Notes under the pieces: model-generated
Seen by the model: only the letters and a program-made list of their open reading frames with translations
Told to the model about the DNA's origin: nothing
Databases searched by the model: none
Source of the DNA: Antricoccus suffuscus
GTDB taxonomy: Bacteria; Actinomycetota; Actinomycetes; Mycobacteriales; Antricoccaceae
Length of the DNA: 64,000 nt
Assembly (NCBI RefSeq): GCF_003003235.1
Contig: NZ_PVUE01000005.1
Coordinates: 1-64,000, forward strand
Reading direction: 5' to 3'
In this document: piece after piece, positions 4,771 through 15,475 of the stretch
Numbering within the stretch: position 1 is the stretch's first letter
Layout of the letters: each line of letters starts with the position of its first letter
Program-made: the position numbers and the translations under genes

Positions 4771-7044
4771 GTGGTTGGCGGTGCCGATCCAGTCTTCTAG
4801 CTCGCCTTCGGAGACGGGGAACCCGGGAAACCGCGCCATTCGGATCGTCGGGATCGCCCGGAACATGCGCGCGTGCTGCGGATCGGCGAAGTAGCCGGCA
4901 TACGGCGTGCCCTCGAGCGCACGATGCAGCCGCTCTCCTACTGCCGGATGGTCGAGCCAGTCACCGATCTCGGCGTCCAGCTCCAGCGGTGGGGTGAGGT
5001 CTTCGCCGGTCAACTCGATCGGCGCCGACAGCCGAATGTCCCTCGACGAGGCGCCCACTCGGATCTCGAACGCACCTCCTTCGACCACCCACCGATGAAG
5101 TGAAATGTGCCAGTAGGAGAACGCGCGAGGGCCGAGCTTGAGTACGACGCGACTGCTCTGGCCCGGCTCGAGAGCGACCTTGGCAAACGATCTCAGCTCT
5201 TGATCCGGACGGAAGACCGTGGCCTGAGGATCACCGACGTACAGCTGGACGGTTTCCTTGCCGAACCGGTCGCCGGTATTGGTGACCGTGAGCTCGACCG
5301 TGACGCGCGGTGCCGCGCCGTCGTTGTCGACCGTCACGGTGAGGTCGTCGTACCCGAAGGTCGTGTAGGACAGCCCGTGTCCGAACGGATAAGCAACGTC
5401 GAGCCGTCGCGCGTCGTACCAGCGATACCCGATGAGCAGCCCCTCGCCGTATCGGACCTCGCCCAGCCCGCCCGGGAAGGCCCCAACAGTCGGGTTTTCC
5501 TCGTAACGCATCGGTATGGTCTCGGCAAGCTTGCCGGACGGGTTCGCACGTCCGGTTAAAAGGTCCGCGAGCGCCGAGCCGCCGGCCTGTCCCAGCAGCC
5601 ATCCCTCCACGAGTGCCTTGGCCTGTTGCTGCCACGGCGCGACGGTGACGACCGAGCCGTTGGACAGTACGACGACCACATTCGGGTTGACCTCGTAGAT
5701 CGCGGCCAGCAGATCGAACTGGTGGGCCGGCAGGTCCATGTCTTCGCGGTCATAACCCTCGGACTCGTACGCCGGCGGCAGACCCAGGAAGAGGACGACC
5801 GTCGCCGCACGCTGGGCGTGAGTGACCGCCTCGCTGACCAGCTCCGGCGCGGCCGAGTCGGCCTCGATGCTGTAGCCGGGGGCGAAGGTGACCTCGCGCT
5901 CGAGCACCGCACGCAGCGAGCTCAGCGCATCGTCGACGCGGGTCGGCCGCACCTGCGAGCTGCCGGCGCCCTGATACCGGGGGCGTCGAGCGAACTCCCC
6001 GATCACCGCCACCGGGCCACCCTCGGTCGGATTGAGCGGCAGGATCGCGCCGTCGTTCTTGAGCAGTACGGCGCTCTCACGCGCGGCCTCGGCCGCGAGT
6101 GCATGATGCGCGTCGTAGTCGACGACGACCTCGGTCGCCAACGCCGGCTGCGCGCGCTGCACCAGTTGCAGCACCCGGCGTACGGACCGGTCCACCTGCG
6201 CGGTCGTGACGGTGCCAGCCTCCACGGCCTGCACGATCGCGCGCGCACCGCTTCCTCCGGACGAGGGCATCTCCAGGTCCAGCCCAGCCGGTAACGCGGC
6301 CTCCCGGCGGTTGACCGCGCCCCAGTCGGAGACCACCAGGCCGTCGAAGCCCCACTCGTCGCGCAGCAACTCTGTGAGCAGCCACGGGTCTTCCGAGGTG
6401 TAGATGCCGTTGAGCCTGTTGTAGGAGCACATGACCGTCCACGGAGCCGCCATCGTGACCACGGTCTCGAACGCCGGCAGGTAGATCTCGCGCAAGGTGC
6501 GCTCGTCGACCTGCGCCGAGACCGACATCCGCGCGGTCTCCTGGTTGTTGGCCGCGAAGTGCTTCACCGACGTACCGACGCCTTGGCTCTGTACGCCGAT
6601 GACGAACGCCGCGCCAAGCTCACCGGCTAGCACCGGGTCCTCGGAGAAGTACTCGAAGTTGCGCCCGCACAGCGGTGAGCGCTTCATGTTGACGCCCGGT
6701 CCAAGCAGCACCGAGACGCGTTCGGCGCGGCACTCCCGGCCGAGTGCGTCACCGACCCGGGTCAGCAGCGCGGTGTCCCAGGATGAGGCGAGGCCGGCGG
6801 CCGGCGGGAAGCACGTCGCGCGGGCGGTCTCCCCGGCACCGAGGTGGTCTCCGCCCGCGGACTGTTTGCGCAGGCCGTGCGGGCCGTCGGTCATCATGAT
6901 CGCCGGAACGCCGAGCCGGTCCAGCGTCCTGGTGTGCCACATGCCGGCCCCATCGAGCAGGGAGGCCTTCTCCTTCAGTGTCAGGTTGGCGACGAGCCCT
7001 TCGATATCGAGCGGCACGCCGCCCTCCTCGCGGTCCTTGGTCAT
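4768..7044 (-). CDS. Glycoside hydrolase family 3 beta-glucosidase
   Basis: This is a retaining exo-glycosidase releasing terminal beta-linked sugars, most likely beta-glucosidase. The GH3 N-terminal barrel contains KHFAANNQE (161-169) and the nucleophile Asp240 in the VSDWG motif. The GH3 C-terminal alpha/beta sandwich and a fibronectin-III-like C-terminal domain follow. There is no PA14 insert and no signal peptide, so it probably acts in the cytoplasm on imported oligosaccharides. The 758-residue length is typical. AAGGGAA precedes the ATG. It stands alone, with SURF1 diverging upstream. The precise sugar specificity cannot be read from sequence. Confidence 0.93.
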   Translation of the reverse strand: MTKDREEGGVPLDIEGLVANLTLKEKASLLDGAGMWHTRTLDRLGVPAIMMTDGPHGLRKQSAGGDHLGAGETARATCFPPAAGLASSWDTALLTRVGDALGRECRAERVSVLLGPGVNMKRSPLCGRNFEYFSEDPVLAGELGAAFVIGVQSQGVGTSVKHFAANNQETARMSVSAQVDERTLREIYLPAFETVVTMAAPWTVMCSYNRLNGIYTSEDPWLLTELLRDEWGFDGLVVSDWGAVNRREAALPAGLDLEMPSSGGSGARAIVQAVEAGTVTTAQVDRSVRRVLQLVQRAQPALATEVVVDYDAHHALAAEAARESAVLLKNDGAILPLNPTEGGPVAVIGEFARRPRYQGAGSSQVRPTRVDDALSSLRAVLEREVTFAPGYSIEADSAAPELVSEAVTHAQRAATVVLFLGLPPAYESEGYDREDMDLPAHQFDLLAAIYEVNPNVVVVLSNGSVVTVAPWQQQAKALVEGWLLGQAGGSALADLLTGRANPSGKLAETIPMRYEENPTVGAFPGGLGEVRYGEGLLIGYRWYDARRLDVAYPFGHGLSYTTFGYDDLTVTVDNDGAAPRVTVELTVTNTGDRFGKETVQLYVGDPQATVFRPDQELRSFAKVALEPGQSSRVVLKLGPRAFSYWHISLHRWVVEGGAFEIRVGASSRDIRLSAPIELTGEDLTPPLELDAEIGDWLDHPAVGERLHRALEGTPYAGYFADPQHARMFRAIPTIRMARFPGFPVSEGELEDWIGTANH

Positions 7045-8740: not shown

Positions 8741-10309
8741 CTAAGGGCGCATGCCGAATGACGGGCGGCCGACCAGCGGCGGCAGCAGCCGGTAGGCGTC
8801 ACGCACCCACTCACACAGCAGCCGGCGCGAGTCGCGCGGGTCGATGAGGTCGTCGACGCCGAATCGTTCGGCGGTACGAAGCGGTGACCGGATCGCCTCC
8901 ATCTCCTCCTGGATCTTCGCGAGCAGCGCGTCCGGGTCGTCCGAGGCCTCAAGCTCCGAGCGGTACGCCGCCTCGATCCCGCCTTCGACCGGCAGCGATC
9001 CCCAGTCCCCGGACGGCCACGCCCACTGCGGGACATAACCGTGCCTGTTGACCTGGCCGGCGCCACCGACCCCGAAGACGCGGCGTACGACGACCTCGGC
9101 CATCGGCACGTTGGCTTGGTACGCCGCGGAGATCGCGCGGGCGCCATCCCGGATCGCGCCGGTCCTCTCGGCGGCGAGGCCGATCGCGAGACCCGACTGG
9201 TCGGTGAGGCTGACGATCGGAAGGTGGAACATCGTGCACAGATCGACCAGCCGCGTCATCGCCTGTCCGCCCTGTCCCGTCATGGCCGCGCCCTTGTAGG
9301 GGTCCGTAGCTATGACCCCGACCGGATGCCCGTCGAGCCGGGCGAGCCCGGTGAAGATCGACCCGCCGTACTCGGCGTACGTGAAGACCGAACCACTATC
9401 AAAGACGCCATCGAGCAACGGCTTGAGCCGGTAGACCTTGCGGCGGTCGCGCGGGATGAGTGAGATCAGCGCCTCGTCGCGCCGGTCGACCGGGTCGTCG
9501 TTGTCGATGACGGTCGGAATCTCGTTGACGTTAGAGGGCAGGTAGGACAAGAATCGGCGGATCTCGGCGAACGCCTCTTCCTCGCTGTCGACCCAGCGTT
9601 CGACGGCGCCCGAACGACGATGCACTTCGTAGCCGCCGAGCTCCTCCTTGGTCAGATCCTGCCCGGTCGCGTGCAGCACGACGGGCGGGCCGGCCACGAA
9701 CAGCTGCGCGAGGCCCTTGACAAAGATGGCCAGGTGCGACATCGCGGTCCGTCCGGCGCCGAGGCCCGCGACCGGCCCGCCGCCATAGGCGATGACCGGG
9801 ATTACCGACATGTTGTCCACGACGGTGTCCCAGGCGGGGTTCGCCGGGACGTACGTCGCCCCCATGGTCTCCAACGACTTGATGCTGCCGCCGCCACCGG
9901 TGCCCTCAATCATCCGCACCAACGGCAGGCCGAGCTTGTTAGCCATGAGCTCCGCGTGCAACTGCTTCCCGCGGATCGACGCGTCCGACGCACCACCGCG
10001 GACCGTGAAGTCATCCGCCCCAATAATGACCTTGCGACCCTCGACCCGGCATGAGCCGACAACGAAGTTGGGCGCGGCCAGGTCGGTGAGCTCGCCGTTT
10101 TCGTCGTACTCGCCAAAGCCGGCAATGGCGCCGACTTCGGCCCAGGTGCCCGGGTCGGCGAACGCATCGATGCGCTCACGCACGTTGAGCCGGCCGGCGT
10201 CACGCTGCCGCTTGAGCTTCGCCTCGCCGCCCATCCGCTCGACGAGCTTGCGGCGAGCCGCAATTTGCTCAACTTCCGGGGACCAATCACCGGACTTCTT
10301 CGTCGTCAT
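8741..10309 (-). CDS. Acyl-CoA carboxylase, carboxyltransferase (beta) subunit
   Basis: This subunit transfers a carboxyl group from carboxybiotin to an acyl-CoA such as acetyl- or propionyl-CoA. Its 522 residues contain two crotonase-like halves. The N-terminal half has GADDFTVRGGASDASIRGKQ and the Gly-rich EGTGGGGS stretch. The C-terminal half has GGQAMTRLVDLC and the VFGVGGAGQ loop typical of these subunits. No biotin carboxylase or biotin carrier gene is adjacent, so its partner must be encoded elsewhere and the substrate is open. It lies downstream of the LCP gene on the same strand, with a gap of about 90 nt. Confidence 0.92.
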   Translation of the reverse strand: MTTKKSGDWSPEVEQIAARRKLVERMGGEAKLKRQRDAGRLNVRERIDAFADPGTWAEVGAIAGFGEYDENGELTDLAAPNFVVGSCRVEGRKVIIGADDFTVRGGASDASIRGKQLHAELMANKLGLPLVRMIEGTGGGGSIKSLETMGATYVPANPAWDTVVDNMSVIPVIAYGGGPVAGLGAGRTAMSHLAIFVKGLAQLFVAGPPVVLHATGQDLTKEELGGYEVHRRSGAVERWVDSEEEAFAEIRRFLSYLPSNVNEIPTVIDNDDPVDRRDEALISLIPRDRRKVYRLKPLLDGVFDSGSVFTYAEYGGSIFTGLARLDGHPVGVIATDPYKGAAMTGQGGQAMTRLVDLCTMFHLPIVSLTDQSGLAIGLAAERTGAIRDGARAISAAYQANVPMAEVVVRRVFGVGGAGQVNRHGYVPQWAWPSGDWGSLPVEGGIEAAYRSELEASDDPDALLAKIQEEMEAIRSPLRTAERFGVDDLIDPRDSRRLLCEWVRDAYRLLPPLVGRPSFGMRP

Positions 10310-10403
10310 GCAGGACTACTCCTTCAACCGTCGGGAACGCGAGGCGTTTCCGATCATGCCCTAACGGGCCGAGAGGGCCGCGCACAGGCGTCGCCCCCGA
10401 CGT

Positions 10404-12035
10404 TCAGCAGGTCTCGACGACCGGCGCGGTCGCAGTCGGGGCCGACTCGCTCGGGGCGCCCCAGGTGCTGCCCTGCGCGTCGTCGACGGCGCCCGGCCCC
10501 GCGTTGGGGTTGGGCTTGGCCGTGCTGTCGGCCGGCTGCTGGTCCTGCCCACCCGCCGGCGTACTTTCCAGCGGCTGGTCGTTGATGATCGCGTCGAACA
10601 TGGCCGGGCCGGCGTTGTCATCGATGCGTAGGCCGACGGCTGACGAGTCCGGCAACGGAATAGTCGCCGCGGACATCGGCGGCACGACGATGACGGCCGC
10701 GCCGGACTTCTCGTGTTTGCCGAGGTCGCTGAGTGACCCGGCCAGGGTGCGCATCTGTCCGAGCGTCGTCGAGTCGTCGATGGTGAGCGCGGCGGCCGAG
10801 GCGAAAGCGAACTTCGTCGCGCGCACCGGATTGATCAGGGTCTGTGCGCTCAGCGCGGCCGAGAAAAGCTTGGACAGGAAGTCGATTTGACGAGTCGCGC
10901 GGGCCGGGTCGTCACCGCTTCCCTGGTTGACTGCGCGCACATAGTCGGCCGCCTGTTTGCCGTCGAGGGTCGTCGTACCGGCCGGCAAAGACAGTTTCTG
11001 TGCGGGATCCTTCAACGGGTCCTTCAGACACACGTCAATGCCGCCGAGCGCATCGACTACCTCGGGGAACTTCCCCAGGTCGACGCCGATGTAGTGGTTG
11101 ATCATGATCCCGGTCGTCGCCTGCACGGCCGCCACCGAGCACCTGGCACCGCCCGCGGCGTACGCCGACTCAATCGTCCCGGTAAAGGTCGCGACCGGCT
11201 TCTTGGCGGTGCCGCAGGGTGGTATGTCGACGACGGTCGTCCTGGGGAAGCTGACGATCACCAACCGCTTTTCATTGGCCGACAAGTGCGCAAGCGCGGT
11301 GATCTGCGCGCCGTTCGCGTCGTGGCTCGAGCTGTCAGACACGGTGATCAAGTAGTTCTGGGCGCCCTCCTGGAGCGGGCGGTCGACGACTTCCGCGCCA
11401 TCGACCCGCAGCACCGACTCGCGGGCGATCTGAGCGCGCGCGATAAACAGCACCGCCACGTAGTACGCCGCGACGATCCCGACAACGATCCCGACAACGA
11501 GCAGCGCGCGCACCGCCGGATGCCGCTGATAGATGCTGCGACGGTCGCGTTCGCCGTCCTCTGACGGGTCGAGCAAGACGCTCGAGCGGGGCTGTTCTGC
11601 GGCCGAATCGAGGCTGTTCGAGGCAAGTTCATCGTCGTCGGAATTGTCGTTTCCAGCGCCGTCGATATCGGAGCCGTCCTCAGCACCGCTGTCGGTGCCG
11701 AGGTCGCGCCCACTCGCCGCGGATCGCGGCGCGGGTTCCCGCGGATCATCGGAGGTTCGTGACGGATCGCCGGAATTTCGTGACGGATCGCCGGAATTTC
11801 GTGACGGATCATCGGAATTTCGTGACGGATCGCCGGAATTTCGTGACGGATCATCGGAATTTCGTGACGGATCGCGCTCGTCCTCGTCTTCCGCGGCGCG
11901 GCGTCGCCGCGACCCGGTGTCCTGTTGCCGGCCGAGCCGGGCCATCAGCTCCGCGACCGTGACCTGCGGTGCCAGTCCTTCGGGTTCGCCATCGTCGCCG
12001 ACACTGTGGTTATCGGCGTGGTGCTCATCGGTCAT
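10404..12035 (-). CDS. LCP (LytR-CpsA-Psr) family glycopolymer transferase
   Basis: LCP proteins attach lipid-linked anionic glycopolymers to peptidoglycan on the outer membrane face. The ATG beginning MTDEHHAD is chosen because longer forms run into the upstream ligase gene. Order: a disordered cytoplasmic tail of about 170 residues, one membrane helix (about 176-199), then the LCP domain with its phosphorylated-lipid-binding Arg-rich segments (SFPRTTVVDIP; DPARATRQIDFL). No LytR_C domain follows; the tail is Pro/Ala-rich and ends in Cys. Residues 55-96 are six DPSRNS(D/G) heptads encoded by a 21-bp DNA repeat also found outside genes. It is the last gene of the envelope operon, 10 nt after the MurF-like gene. 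Confidence 0.9.
   Translation of the reverse strand: MTDEHHADNHSVGDDGEPEGLAPQVTVAELMARLGRQQDTGSRRRRAAEDEDERDPSRNSDDPSRNSGDPSRNSDDPSRNSGDPSRNSGDPSRTSDDPREPAPRSAASGRDLGTDSGAEDGSDIDGAGNDNSDDDELASNSLDSAAEQPRSSVLLDPSEDGERDRRSIYQRHPAVRALLVVGIVVGIVAAYYVAVLFIARAQIARESVLRVDGAEVVDRPLQEGAQNYLITVSDSSSHDANGAQITALAHLSANEKRLVIVSFPRTTVVDIPPCGTAKKPVATFTGTIESAYAAGGARCSVAAVQATTGIMINHYIGVDLGKFPEVVDALGGIDVCLKDPLKDPAQKLSLPAGTTTLDGKQAADYVRAVNQGSGDDPARATRQIDFLSKLFSAALSAQTLINPVRATKFAFASAAALTIDDSTTLGQMRTLAGSLSDLGKHEKSGAAVIVVPPMSAATIPLPDSSAVGLRIDDNAGPAMFDAIINDQPLESTPAGGQDQQPADSTAKPNPNAGPGAVDDAQGSTWGAPSESAPTATAPVVETC
11742..11876. repeat. In-frame 21-bp minisatellite inside the LCP gene
   Basis: GACGGATC cores start at 11761, 11782, 11803, 11824, 11845 and 11866, an exact 21-bp period, with variable halves GCCGGAATTTC or ATCGGAATTTC. 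A degenerate unit (GCGGATCATCGGAGGTTC) precedes them. Because 21 is divisible by 3, copy-number change would add or remove one heptapeptide without shifting frame. Confidence 0.92.
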
Positions 12036-12045
12036 GCGTGAATAC

Positions 12046-13602
12046 TCACGGATAGTGCACGGGAAGGTCGTTTTCGTAAAGTACGCCGTCCCCTTCGCCA
12101 AGCTCAGAACGCAGCATCTGAACGGCATCCTCGCGGCGGGCGACCTCGGTAGCCTTGATCCCGGCCCGTTTCGCGCCGGCAAGCAGGGCGCGGCGGTTGG
12201 TGTGCCCGACCACGATGAGCCGATCGACATACCCGATTGACTCGGCGATCCACGCCTCGTTTTCGGCATCTTGGCGGCTACCGAGCTCCACCATGCCGGG
12301 TGTCACGACGACCGCCGTGCCGTTTGTCCGCCGCCGCAGGTCGGCCGTCGCGGCCCGCGCGCCGGCGGGGTTGGAGTTAAACGTGTCGTCGATGACGACC
12401 CAGCCGCCGGGCGCCGTACCGGCAACGCGGCGGTTCTTCGGTCGCGCGATTCGGCCGACGTTGTGCAGCACGGTCGCGGGGTCGATGCCCAGCGCCAAGA
12501 TCGCGCCGAGAGCGCTGGCCAAGTTTTGCGCGTCAAGCGATTGCGCGTCCTCGTGGACCGCGTGCAGGTGTTGCCCGCGTACGTCGATGTCGAACCCGTC
12601 AGCCACTGTGACGACGGTGATATCGGCGCCGGCCGCTGGGGTAGTCGCCACTCGGATCACCTCACTGGACACGGAACGGTCGGCGCACATCCGCTCGGCG
12701 AGCGCGGCCAGCGGCGAGTAGTCGACATTGATGACGGCCGGTTTGCCGGGCTGGAAGATCTCGCTCTTGGCCGCGACGATCCCCTCGATCGTCTTCATAC
12801 GTTCGAGGTGGACCGGTCCGACTGCGCAAAAGACCGACACGTCCGGCGGGAAGTAACGACACAGCGCGGCGATCTCACCGGGGCCGTAGGTGCCCATCTC
12901 CGCGACGAAGACCTCGGTGCCGGGCTCGAGCTTTTCGCTGACCGCGCGGCTGAGGCCCGCCTTGTTGTTGAACGACGCAGGGCTCGGCACGCACGACTTG
13001 ACGCCCTGCAACAGCGTCGCGACGTACTCCTTCGTCGTCGTCTTGCCGAAGCTGCCGGTGATCGCGATCGTGGCCGGGTTGACCTTGCGCAGTGCCTGTG
13101 CCGCGGCCGTCGCGTACTTCTCACCGATCGCGCTTTCGATCGGTAGCGCGATGATGAGCGCGACGTCGACCAGAAGCGGTGTAACGAGCGCGGTGACGGT
13201 AAGCGAGATACCGAGCCAGATCCCCGGCAGCGCCCATAGGACGAGCGCAAGGACGACGAGCAGTACGACGCTGAGGATGGTGACGACGATCAGCCGCCGG
13301 GTGAACTTCGCTGTCAGTTCGAGACGACGCACCGAGAGGTCGACCGGCGCAACAACCATCAAGATGCACGCGGCGATGAGTACGGCGGACGCGACGAGGG
13401 GCGCGGTGAACAGCACGCCCAGGATGGCCAGGACGACCGCGACGGCGAGAATCACGTAGTTGGTCGGTATGACGGCGAACCAGCGGCGAAGAGTGGCGAC
13501 CACGGATCCGGGGATGTAATGCTCGAGTTGCGCGATCTTGAGGCTGCGTAGCAGGAGTACGACGACGGCGATACCGGCGACGACCGCGGCGAGAATACTC
13601 AT
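12046..13602 (-). CDS. Membrane-anchored MurF-like Mur ligase family protein
   Basis: This is an ATP-dependent amide ligase of the Mur superfamily. About five hydrophobic segments occupy residues 2-155, in place of the UDP-binding first domain of MurF. The central ATPase domain follows, with the P-loop GSFGKTTTK (183-191), the MurF-like FNNKAGLS and VAEMGTYGPGEIA motifs, VGPVHLERM and AAKSEIF. A Mur ligase C-terminal domain (DDTFNSNPAG...) ends in VLYENDLP. Its four-base ATGA start overlap with the hydrolase gene, and the Ddl-like gene just upstream, suggest it couples the product of that ligase to an envelope acceptor. The acceptor is unknown; the missing UDP domain argues against ordinary Park-nucleotide synthesis. 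Confidence 0.85.
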   Translation of the reverse strand: MSILAAVVAGIAVVVLLLRSLKIAQLEHYIPGSVVATLRRWFAVIPTNYVILAVAVVLAILGVLFTAPLVASAVLIAACILMVVAPVDLSVRRLELTAKFTRRLIVVTILSVVLLVVLALVLWALPGIWLGISLTVTALVTPLLVDVALIIALPIESAIGEKYATAAAQALRKVNPATIAITGSFGKTTTKEYVATLLQGVKSCVPSPASFNNKAGLSRAVSEKLEPGTEVFVAEMGTYGPGEIAALCRYFPPDVSVFCAVGPVHLERMKTIEGIVAAKSEIFQPGKPAVINVDYSPLAALAERMCADRSVSSEVIRVATTPAAGADITVVTVADGFDIDVRGQHLHAVHEDAQSLDAQNLASALGAILALGIDPATVLHNVGRIARPKNRRVAGTAPGGWVVIDDTFNSNPAGARAATADLRRRTNGTAVVVTPGMVELGSRQDAENEAWIAESIGYVDRLIVVGHTNRRALLAGAKRAGIKATEVARREDAVQMLRSELGEGDGVLYENDLPVHYP

Positions 13603-14369
13603 CCGGCGTCCTTGAGGATGATGGTGATCGCTGCCTGCAGCTCGTCGCGCATCTCGTTGACGGTGTCGTGTCCGGTGGCCTCGCCTACGACGACGTGCGT
13701 GGCGCCGAGGACTTCAGCGAGTTTGTCGACCTGAGCTGCCGGGGCCTCAGTGTCGTTTCGCCCCCAGACCAGCGCGACCGGCTTGTGCTGCTCGCCGACC
13801 GCCCGAAGGTCGTCGTCGTAGTTGTCGTTGACGATGCGCACAAATACCGGGCGCAGGGCGGGCCCGGCCGTGCGGTAGTCGGTGCTGCCGTACTTCTGTC
13901 GTTGCTTTTCCATCAGCGAGTCCGGGAGCACCTTGATTTTGTTGAGCATCTTGGCCACCCGAAACGCTAATGCCGGTTTGGACTTGGGCGCGTCGTCGGG
14001 CCGGATCAACGGCGATCCGGTGATCACCAGCCCGGCGACCAGGTCGGGGCGCTTGGCGGCAAGGCGTACGGCGACCCGTCCCCCGAACGAGTGTCCGGCC
14101 AGCACCATGTTCTTCCAGCCACGCGTGTCGAGTGCGTCAGCGACCGCGTCAGCGTATTCCGGCGTACCCCACTCCGACGACGGCAGCTTGGTCTGGCCGA
14201 ATGCGGGCAGATCGATCGCGACGGTCGGGATTTCGGTGGCGAGCAGCCAGTCGAAGTCGTGCGCGGTCCGCTGCCATCCATGCATCGCGAGTACGGCGGG
14301 CTGCTGCGCATTGGTGCGCCCGAAGATCGGGATCTCACCAAGTGGGAGGGACCTGGGCGTTGCGCTCAT
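13599..14369 (-). CDS. Alpha/beta hydrolase
   Basis: A 256-residue serine hydrolase-type protein. HGW at 30-32 supplies the oxyanion-hole region, the nucleophile elbow is GHSFGG with Ser94, the acid is probably in WGRNDTEAP, and the His is in GEATGHD near the C-terminus. There is no signal peptide. It overlaps the stop of the Ddl-like gene (ATGA) and in turn overlaps the start of the MurF-like gene (ATGA), so all three are translationally coupled. Its substrate is unknown; context suggests hydrolysis or release of an envelope precursor or dipeptide ester. Confidence 0.85.
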   Translation of the reverse strand: MSATPRSLPLGEIPIFGRTNAQQPAVLAMHGWQRTAHDFDWLLATEIPTVAIDLPAFGQTKLPSSEWGTPEYADAVADALDTRGWKNMVLAGHSFGGRVAVRLAAKRPDLVAGLVITGSPLIRPDDAPKSKPALAFRVAKMLNKIKVLPDSLMEKQRQKYGSTDYRTAGPALRPVFVRIVNDNYDDDLRAVGEQHKPVALVWGRNDTEAPAAQVDKLAEVLGATHVVVGEATGHDTVNEMRDELQAAITIILKDAG

Positions 14370-15475
14370 GCGAGCTTCGAGGCGATGCTGTGCGCGTCGC
14401 GCAGCAGCCGGCCGTCGGCGCCTTGCGAGGTCCACCGGCCAACACCGCGCGCGCCGGCCTCCTCGATCAGGCCGGTCAGCAGGGTCTTGAACGCCTGTTG
14501 CGGCGTACCGGACCAGAGGTACTTCGCCCAGGAGCCGGGCAGCGCGTTGAGCTCGTTGACGACGTACGACGTGCCGTCGGTCATGAAGTCCAGCCGCATC
14601 ACGCCCCGGGCCGGGAGCGCAGCCGCGATCGCCGATGCCGCGTCGCCGAGCTGTTTGCGCAGCTCAGGGGTGATGTTGGCGGGGAGTTCCCGGGCCGCCC
14701 CGGCCATACCCTCGCCGCTGACGTACTTGTCGTCGTACGACAGCGCGCCGACGCCTTTGCCGATCGGCCGCTCGAACTCCGACAACGTGGGCTCGGGGTA
14801 GTTGCGCATCGCGACGTTGACGTCGTACCAGCCATCGAGCATCTGCTCGACGTACGCACCGGCGGCGTACAGCGACTGCGACTTGATCAGCGCGACGGCG
14901 TCGTCGATGGTGTCGACCACTTCGACGCCGAGCGAGGAGCCGCCGAAACGCGGCTTGAGGACGTATGGCCCGTCGAAGCCCGGCGTGATTGGCTTGCCGC
15001 CGGCGATGAGGATGCGCTTGGCGACCGGCAGTCCGAGGCTCGCGGCAAACGCGGCGAAGGCGAGCTTGTCCATGCACAGCGCCGCCTCGCGCAGGGTCGG
15101 GCCGGTGTAGGCGATGCCCGCCAGCTCCAGCAGAGCCTGCAGGTGACCGTCTTCGCCGGGCGCACCGTGGCAGCCGACGACCGCGACGTCGATCTCCACC
15201 TTGGATGTACGACCCAACCGACCCTTGACGACCAAACCCGGATCCGTGCCGAGCTGCCAGTCGACGTCCTTGCCGCCGGCGGGAACACCGTCGGCGAACG
15301 CGCTTGCCTCGAGGGTCGGCTCGTGCAGGCTCCACCGGCCCTGTTTCGACCAGTAGAGCACCGACACGTCGTACCCGATATCGGCAAGTGCGCGGGCGGC
15401 CTGTAGTCCGGTCAGGATGCTGACATCGTGCTCGGGGGAAGGCCCGCCAACTATGACGGCCAGACGCTTATTCAT
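14366..15475 (-). CDS. D-alanine-D-alanine ligase-like ATP-grasp protein
   Basis: An ATP-grasp ligase of the Ddl family, 369 residues. GPSPEHDVS (N-terminal Ddl signature), GCHGAPGEDGHLQ, the ATP-binding GGSSLGVEVV loop and MRLDFMTDG with the Mg-binding ELN are all present. The segment after ELN reads ALPGSWAKYLW, whereas standard Ddl proteins have NTxPG(M/F)TxxS, whose Ser helps bind the second D-Ala. Substrate specificity may therefore differ. The start MNKRLAV is chosen; an in-frame ATG lies three codons upstream. It begins 10 nt from the kinase stop and overlaps the hydrolase start. Confidence 0.85.
   Translation of the reverse strand: MNKRLAVIVGGPSPEHDVSILTGLQAARALADIGYDVSVLYWSKQGRWSLHEPTLEASAFADGVPAGGKDVDWQLGTDPGLVVKGRLGRTSKVEIDVAVVGCHGAPGEDGHLQALLELAGIAYTGPTLREAALCMDKLAFAAFAASLGLPVAKRILIAGGKPITPGFDGPYVLKPRFGGSSLGVEVVDTIDDAVALIKSQSLYAAGAYVEQMLDGWYDVNVAMRNYPEPTLSEFERPIGKGVGALSYDDKYVSGEGMAGAARELPANITPELRKQLGDAASAIAAALPARGVMRLDFMTDGTSYVVNELNALPGSWAKYLWSGTPQQAFKTLLTGLIEEAGARGVGRWTSQGADGRLLRDAHSIASKLA

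Follow-up and report, generated by a model that had tools for sequence, protein, structure and literature searches.

Antricoccus suffuscus, a member of the Mycobacteriales, carries in a stretch of 64,000 nucleotides (contig NZ_PVUE01000005.1, positions 1 to 64,000; here called the window) three coupled genes encoding a Ddl-like ligase, an alpha/beta hydrolase and a MurF-like ligase with a predicted membrane domain (Table 1). Our analysis suggests that this trio is most likely the housekeeping MurF/Ddl route of the organism, by which D-alanyl-D-alanine (D-Ala-D-Ala) or a close dipeptide would be made and attached to the stem peptide, and that it has replaced the canonical pair of enzymes as a block. 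MurF and Ddl catalyse textbook steps that are essential and targeted by drugs, and the pathway is usually drawn as universal with a soluble pentapeptide precursor. The widespread and mutually exclusive replacement by a membrane ligase lacking the nucleotide-binding domain would mean that not all parts of this scheme are universal, and perhaps not its order either.

A single detected MurF and Ddl candidate in the draft genome of A. suffuscus

The genome of A. suffuscus is a draft of 4.68 Mb in 43 contigs with a completeness of 97.77%, and a profile search of this draft revealed no MurF or Ddl other than those of the window. The gene in the window is the best MurF match of the genome (158 bits). 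Four of the other matches (62.8, 55.7, 53.2 and 44 bits) belong to the dcw cluster on contig 10, where they were read as murD, murC and murE, the last in two pieces, and a fifth match on contig 17 reaches 27.3 bits. The best Ddl match is also encoded in the window (167.7 bits), and the next one (64.2 bits) covers only a part of the model. The dcw cluster was read by eye as murC, murD, murE, mraY, murG, ftsI and ftsW. In this cluster, murE (8436-10157 of L015) overlaps mraY (10154-11233), leaving no murF between them, and the membrane MurF is located outside the cluster. Since the dcw cluster holds the other precursor genes, the cell needs a MurF, for which the window gene is the only candidate. 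We are therefore fairly confident of the housekeeping role of the trio.

A sequence-only reading of the window had proposed a coupled envelope module that may make a dipeptide and attach it to a lipid-linked or envelope-bound acceptor. On this view, the trio could be an extra, specialised module that acts on an envelope polymer other than peptidoglycan, beside a normal MurF and Ddl. Indeed, a gene of the LCP family adjoins the trio in the window, and genes for a dTDP-glucose 4,6-dehydratase and a pfkB-type kinase are located upstream. However, the genome yielded no second MurF or Ddl, canonical MurF is excluded in the genome samples described below, and no LCP match at E 1e-4 was detected in any of 80 related loci (flanks of up to 8 kb, some of them cut by contig ends). 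Therefore, the LCP transferase was dismissed as a part of the module, and the proposal as a whole is largely refuted and very improbable. The same reading had foreseen that the genes would be housekeeping enzymes if the genome lacked another MurF and Ddl, and within the limits of the draft this is what we find. However, the trio is not simply a housekeeping pair, as the standard enzymes are replaced by differently built ones in many Actinobacteria.

Mutual exclusion of the two MurF forms

To compare genomes, a sample of 61 genomes of the order was searched with the curated models for MurF (TIGR01143, cut-off 288.6 bits) and Ddl (TIGR01205, cut-off 245.65 bits), and one of 296 genomes of the phylum with the MurF model. 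In the order, MurF exceeds the cut-off in 58 of the 61 genomes and so does Ddl. The same three genomes (G000, G048 and G056) fail both cut-offs, and they carry the membrane MurF, for which the family profile gives scores of 627, 681 and 681 bits, respectively. In the phylum, a canonical MurF above the cut-off is present in 263 genomes and missing in 33, of which 27 carry the membrane form and six a canonical MurF that is just below the cut-off or in pieces. For instance, G164 and G321 have full-length canonical enzymes 5-6 bits under the cut-off, and the match in G229 spans model positions 1-332 (270 bits). In G081, the canonical MurF is split into two pieces on two contigs, and C-terminal pieces were detected in G099 and G194. 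The membrane-MurF profile identifies 26 of the phylum carriers at 229 bits or more; in the remaining one, G114, a contig end truncates the match. Below these carriers come G297 (205.9 bits) and lower-scoring genomes, which have a canonical MurF that is matched from about position 120-170. A canonical MurF was found in none of the 27 phylum carriers when these were checked match by match, and each of the 296 genomes shows one MurF form, none showing both. The replacement accounts for the absence of any gene above the cut-off of the curated MurF model in carrier genomes.

A further set of 27 genomes was inspected match by match, consisting of 20 phylum carriers, G048, G056 and the genomes of Aciditerrimonas, Marisediminicola, Actinotalea, Arsenicicoccus and Salinibacterium. 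No MurF above the cut-off is present in this set (0/27). A Ddl above the cut-off occurs in six of its genomes, all belonging to the family f21, and in each of them the Ddl is no more than about 1.3 kb away from the membrane MurF. As a separate observation from the order sample, G009 (C45:15274-19670) has a second, divergent full-length MurF (model positions 3-416, 177 bits) beside Ddl-type matches, in addition to a canonical MurF.

Conservation of the trio and traces of the replacement

For the gene neighbourhood, 80 of 135 relatives were kept. In 71 of the 80 loci the genes for hydrolase, MurF and Ddl follow each other in that order on one strand, and therefore the arrangement in the window, in which the order is Ddl, hydrolase and MurF, is not due to chance. 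The conservation of the cluster in other actinobacteria, a check suggested by the sequence-only reading, is thereby borne out. Among the remaining loci, two are without Ddl and three without hydrolase (the contigs are short or the matches close to a contig end), and in two others one partner is inverted (L060 and L064). The carriers include many metagenome-assembled genomes (MAGs) of Acidimicrobiia, 'Frankiales' MAGs, Aciditerrimonas, Candidatus Microthrix, Marisediminicola, Salinibacterium, Glaciihabitans, Actinotalea and Arsenicicoccus.

The place of the canonical murF gene between murE and mraY was examined in 20 carriers. There is no room for murF in 14 of them (the matched parts are no more than 143 bases apart), four contain stumps of a canonical MurF (Table 1), and two (L143 and L149), in which no mraY was found near murE, were left unjudged. 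The stump in L142 overlaps both of its neighbours. The frames of the stumps are still open in all four genomes, a hint that they retain a function other than catalysis, possibly as a scaffold for MurE and MraY. In the Salinibacterium locus L129, the murD frame after mraY (5872-6900) is also short (342 amino acids; TIGR01087 positions 1-177 only, 60 bits) and without the GTNGKT P-loop; another MurD may be encoded elsewhere in that genome.

In some genomes the trio occupies a usual site of the canonical ddl gene. In L059, L079 and L092 only 3-4 bases separate gpsA from the start of the hydrolase gene, and thiL lies within about half a kilobase downstream of the Ddl gene, with leuC, leuD, a murA-like gene and plsC upstream of the trio. 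The interval between gpsA and thiL is a place where canonical ddl resides, in the order gpsA, ddl and thiL in G006 and as gpsA and ddl in G001, where the stretch contains no thiL. NCBIfam supplied the names of gpsA, thiL, leuC and the acyltransferase, each from a single locus, and the other neighbours were assigned by eye or from their similarity. The two canonical enzymes, Ddl and MurF, would have been replaced together, probably via horizontal transfer of the block. Since the four other sampled genomes of the family to which A. suffuscus belongs (G002, G016, G028 and G037) have a canonical MurF, the trio most likely entered the lineage of the window by transfer. In three genomes of this family (L132, L154 and L155 of G028, G016 and G002, respectively) canonical murF and ddl are adjacent and divergent, and they branch separately in the MurF tree as well as in the Ddl tree. 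In G002 and G028, a long distance lies between this pair and the murD-type matches of the dcw cluster. More than one exchange of the murF/ddl pair may have taken place in the family.

Several observations weigh against the trio as the general and only route. A second, short Ddl is kept in seven genomes of the further set of 27 (G048, G056, G189, G350, G351, G352 and G353), and therefore the Ddl of the cluster is not the sole ligase everywhere. Moreover, G104 has a second Ddl fragment (97 bits) at a contig edge, the Ddl and MurF matches of G258 are on different contigs, and in two of the 80 loci (L066 and L070) neither hydrolase nor Ddl was found in the 8 kb flanking the membrane MurF. Finally, canonical murF and ddl genes could sit in a gap of the A. 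suffuscus assembly, given the number of its contigs and its completeness. However, the murE-mraY junction is intact within one contig, and the same pattern occurs in other carriers, including G134, which consists of a single contig, and G251 with seven contigs. Such an oversight is therefore extremely unlikely.

A membrane domain in place of the UDP-binding domain

TIGR01143 matches the window protein at model positions 61-402 of 418 (157.8 bits, below the cut-off). As the match begins only at position 61, the N-terminal part of MurF, which binds uridine diphosphate (UDP), is absent from the window protein. The membrane forms of the further set of 27 genomes likewise start at model positions 58-65, except for G273 (23) and G114 (a fragment from 275), and those of six further phylum carriers at 60-63, except for G186 (26). 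Residues 1-140 of the window protein received no name from Pfam or NCBIfam.

The aligned MurF-like proteins (the window protein and those of 35 of the 80 loci, 36 rows; a further alignment, A4, omits L089) are mostly hydrophobic over the first 160 residues, in which ten positions are invariant (Q25, E27, H28, Y29, W41, P86, L89, T101, R103 and E156). The same ten residues are invariant in a separate alignment of 35 rows. AlphaFold2 predicted the whole protein with a mean predicted local distance difference test (pLDDT) score of 93.5 and a predicted template modelling (pTM) score of 0.89, and residues 1-172 alone with a pLDDT of 94.4. In this model, helices of the N-terminal part comprise residues 2-26, 33-44, 47-64, 68-84, 102-123, 130-139 and 141-174, five of which were assigned as membrane spans (Table 1). 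The mean number of lysine and arginine residues in the aligned proteins is 4.6 in 20-46, 4.1 in 85-104 and 5.8 in 153-175, whereas the loops 65-67 and 124-129 have means of 0.0 and 0.1, respectively. These charges fit five spans that obey the positive-inside rule, which would place the N terminus outside and the catalytic domain as well as both conserved loops in the cytoplasm. Thus, the proposal of the sequence-only reading that membrane helices stand where MurF has its UDP-binding domain is upheld in the form of a conserved, predicted five-span domain. Its reservation that the helices could stem from a wrong start codon was discarded in view of the invariant residues, the AlphaFold2 score and the charges of the loops.

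The catalytic part of the protein is that of a MurF. The best structural match of the model is 4qf5 with Foldseek (E 3.7e-21) and MurF 3zl8 with VIA-align (Z 36.2, 342 residues, root-mean-square deviation 2.4 A). With the membrane domain alone, no match to solved structures below E 0.66 was obtained with Foldseek and none above Z 5.5 with VIA-align, which does not show that the fold is new. Aligned to MurF structures, the central domain bears what we take to be the P-loop, the region of the carbamylated lysine (AKxEI) and the DDTYNxNP motif. The active-site residues G183, G186, K187, T188, E235, H265, K279, E281, N360, R391, D405, D406, N409 and N411 are invariant in all 36 rows. The window protein therefore has the central ATP-binding and C-terminal domains and the active-site motifs in common with MurF (TIGR01143; PDB 3zl8, 4qf5 and 4cvk), but differs from it in lacking the N-terminal UDP-binding domain, in having five predicted spans instead and in belonging to a separate clade.

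In a tree of the catalytic domains, a well-supported branch sets apart each of three groups, namely the membrane forms (24 rows, support 100/99), the f21 subtype (10 rows, 100/99) and canonical MurF (8 rows, 100/100). Of the 36 rows of the MurF alignment, 24 entered the tree; L123 and L163 were omitted, and the canonical L158 and L159 were lost to the P-loop pattern. The f21 subtype also has hydrophobic stretches and carries QLE(G/S)Y and TGRAxR in place of QREHY and RGRTS (11 of 11 loci, L113-L123). The former motif indicates that the QxExY loop is common to both membrane subtypes. Viral contigs, when scanned with the MurF alignment, yielded only two hits, both weak and partial.

The Ddl-like ligase and the hydrolase

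The Ddl alignment comprised the window protein and 34 loci (35 rows) and the hydrolase alignment the window protein and 33 loci (34 rows); L066, which has neither partner, is absent from both, and the hydrolase of L039 was omitted due to a fused frame. In the Ddl-like protein, which with 167.5 bits stays below the cut-off of TIGR01205, E15, K137, K174, Y251, R294, D296, E308 and N310 are invariant (35/35) and E235 and Y247 are present in 34 of the 35 rows. In the loop, K250 and Y251 are invariant and Y247 is replaced by F in a single protein. The Ser94, Asp206 and His234 residues of the hydrolase are invariant in 34 of 34 rows. We presume that the conserved residues of Ddl, MurF and the hydrolase have the usual catalytic roles.

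The Ddl segment that we take to hold the second D-Ala differs from the common form; it reads NELNALPGSWAKYLW in the window and NEVNTIPGSLAxYLW in the consensus. The corresponding segment of the Helicobacter pylori Ddl (2pvp), NEINPIPGSLANYLF, resembles it, PGSLAxYL being common to both, and the two proteins also share both Ddl Pfam domains and the catalytic residues. The Ddl-like enzyme could therefore make another dipeptide or a depsipeptide, for instance D-Ala-D-serine or D-Ala-D-lactate, which would alter the end of the stem peptide. For the H. pylori enzyme, a very high second Km is listed (PMC6899670); the entry is 627, the table bears the heading mM, and a footnote reads 'maximum D-Ala concentration tested'. 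However, that enzyme is still named a D-Ala-D-Ala ligase. Moreover, Y247, K250 and Y251 of the loop are kept in the cluster Ddl, and such tyrosines and lysine fit D-Ala-D-Ala synthesis. A different product is therefore unlikely, and D-Ala-D-Ala or a close dipeptide remains the expected one.

In a Ddl tree that included 24 of the 35 rows (L120 omitted), the cluster Ddl forms a branch separate from the actinobacterial long, short and Van-type Ddl enzymes, with the caveat that the program warned of long branches. The tree also joins the H. pylori Ddl to the cluster Ddl (94/87), a relationship to which we give little weight since its branch is very long and the program warned of false joins. As an observation on gene content, a second, short Ddl gene lies directly before the hydrolase gene in 'Frankiales' genomes (L176 9345-10283, L082 6341-7291 and L084 3380-4330), and the cluster there holds two Ddl types.

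The acceptor and the proposed mechanism

According to the mechanism that we propose, the Ddl-like enzyme would make the dipeptide in the cytoplasm. The membrane MurF, with its five predicted helices and a cytoplasmic catalytic domain, would activate the terminal carboxylate of the tripeptide with ATP and add the dipeptide at the membrane. The conserved positive loops on the cytoplasmic side would probably take the place of the UDP-binding domain and hold the precursor by its diphosphate. As for the hydrolase, it is probably active as a serine hydrolase in the cytoplasm and may edit or trim a precursor or the dipeptide, its substrate being a guess.

The N-terminal domain of Mur ligases has been described to bind uridine and to touch the diphosphate (PMC6085368). 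The replacement of this domain by a membrane region raises fair doubt about a UDP-linked acceptor. Tentatively, we regard a lipid-linked tripeptide, formed after MraY, as somewhat more likely than UDP-N-acetylmuramic acid-tripeptide (UDP-MurNAc-tripeptide). A lipid-linked acceptor is plausible because there is a precedent in MurT, because the MraY of Bacillus subtilis takes the tripeptide nucleotide and because the invariant charged loops are predicted to lie at the membrane face. MurT is a Mur ligase with central and C-terminal domains that amidates lipid I and lipid II and no soluble UDP-linked precursor (PMC6085368). Its structure (6gs2) has detectable sequence similarity to the window protein (E 8.5e-10). 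We assume that MurT has no multi-span membrane domain. The MurT/GatD enzyme differs in using the ammonia of GatD on D-glutamate without adding a dipeptide, and GatD is not among the conserved neighbours of the membrane MurF, which is adjoined by hydrolase and Ddl in the window and in the 71 loci. Purified MraY from B. subtilis accepted the tripeptide nucleotide with a conversion that was only 17% less (PMC4987650).

Against a lipid-linked acceptor, a mere anchor would also explain the helices, and according to an older study of membrane fractions (cited in PMC4987650), MraY uses the tripeptide nucleotide far less well, which speaks against a route via a tripeptide lipid. The membrane MurF could thus perform the same housekeeping task on soluble UDP-MurNAc-tripeptide, with helices that only anchor it beside MraY and with a uridine grip that is dispensable or provided by another surface. 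In favour of this alternative, the catalytic domains resemble those of MurF in full, Mur ligases are said to have little if any contact with MurNAc (PMC6085368), and the MurF of Campylobacter jejuni has been described as using the UDP-linked precursor (PMC5530802). However, the uridine-binding domain is missing (model positions 1-60 unmatched), as in nearly all carriers, and the invariant charged loops at the membrane face exceed the needs of a plain anchor. We consider this alternative possible, though somewhat less likely than the lipid-linked acceptor.

With the lipid-linked tripeptide as the acceptor, the order of the pathway would be changed. MraY would make a tripeptide-lipid I, and the membrane MurF, whose loops would read the lipid diphosphate and not uridine, would complete the pentapeptide; the block would have spread horizontally and would probably be shared with the Campylobacterota. 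This combined scenario is speculative and somewhat short of an even chance. If it is true, the soluble UDP-MurNAc-pentapeptide (Park's nucleotide) is not needed in these bacteria.

In C. jejuni, genes annotated as a Ddl (Cj0798c), an alpha/beta hydrolase (Cj0796c) and a MurF (Cj0795c) lie together (PMC5530802). Deletion of Cj0796c failed in preliminary attempts, and the gene is suspected to be essential; with Cj0796c expressed from a second site, about one in ten transformants formed filaments and most were unchanged (PMC5530802). A possibly essential hydrolase would thus be placed next to the core peptidoglycan pathway. The same three gene types are close together in both organisms, which belong to different phyla, and the likeness is one of gene content. 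The link to the Campylobacterota rests on gene content and the Ddl motif because no genome of this phylum was among those compared. We presume that H. pylori has the same trio. A membrane MurF or the loss of MurF in these Actinobacteria is not reported among the literature matches listed, judging from titles and the beginnings of abstracts, with subscription journals and preprints outside the scope. Moreover, the membrane MurF is not mentioned in the available parts of a paper on the dcw cluster (PMC8871954) and of one on the Mur family (PMC11915815).

Gene arrangement in the window and further neighbours

The features are listed in Table 1. The genes are transcribed in the order Ddl-like ligase, hydrolase, MurF-like ligase and LCP protein. 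ATGA overlaps are present at both the Ddl/hydrolase and the hydrolase/MurF junction, confirming the coupling of the three genes described in the sequence-only reading. A gap of 10 bases without overlap separates the MurF and LCP genes, and perhaps the latter is on the same transcript as the trio in this genome. The gap between the upstream pfkB-like gene and the ddl gene is also 10 bases. Pfam assigned Dala_Dala_lig_N (81.6 bits) and Dala_Dala_lig_C (56.4 bits) to the Ddl-like protein, Abhydrolase_6 (59 bits) to the hydrolase, and Mur_ligase_M (residues 181-304, 78.4 bits) and Mur_ligase_C (residues 397-508, 44.2 bits) to the MurF-like protein, all above the cut-offs.

Table 1. Features of the trio and its surroundings and remnants of canonical MurF; positions refer to the window, or to the locus if one is named
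Feature	Position	Strand	Remarks
Ddl-like ATP-grasp ligase, 369 amino acids	14366-15475	minus	ATG at 15475
Alpha/beta hydrolase, 256 amino acids	13599-14369	minus	invariant Ser94, Asp206, His234
Membrane-embedded MurF-like ligase, 518 amino acids	12046-13602	minus	
MurF-like protein, membrane domain, residues 1-155	13138-13602	minus	five predicted transmembrane segments, predicted N-out/C-in
MurF-like protein, predicted membrane spans			residues 2-26, 47-64, 68-84, 102-123, 141-174; from AlphaFold2, hydropathy and charges
MurF-like protein, predicted cytoplasmic loop 1, residues 20-46	13465-13545	minus	family consensus WLRVAQREHY
MurF-like protein, predicted cytoplasmic loop 2, residues 85-104	13291-13350	minus	family consensus GPxGLxxRGRTSxLAWTRRLR
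MurF-like protein, Mur ligase central and C-terminal domains, about residues 176-515	12058-13077	minus	
LCP-family protein	10404-12035	minus	likely ATG at 12035
MurF stump, Marisediminicola L128	3916-4929		337 amino acids, no P-loop; murF model 186-412, 109 bits
MurF stump, Salinibacterium L129	3774-4790		338 amino acids, no P-loop; murF model 177-418, 102 bits
MurF stump, L142	4850-5219		about 122 amino acids, C-terminal domain only; 44% identity to canonical MurF 347-453, 70 bits
MurF piece fused to MurE, Actinotalea L133	9458-11749		42% over canonical 388-475; only 41 bits, E 4e-5

Among the further neighbours in 78 loci (L077 and L086 were left out as near copies), no obvious pathway partner was found. 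Helicase-like, ExoIII and PH-domain-like genes occur in 21-23 of these loci each; the first and the last were named by eye and ExoIII from one representative. In the window, the N-terminal part of the LCP protein contains six tandem copies of the seven-residue unit DPSR(N/T)S(D/G), encoded at 11748-11873 on the minus strand.

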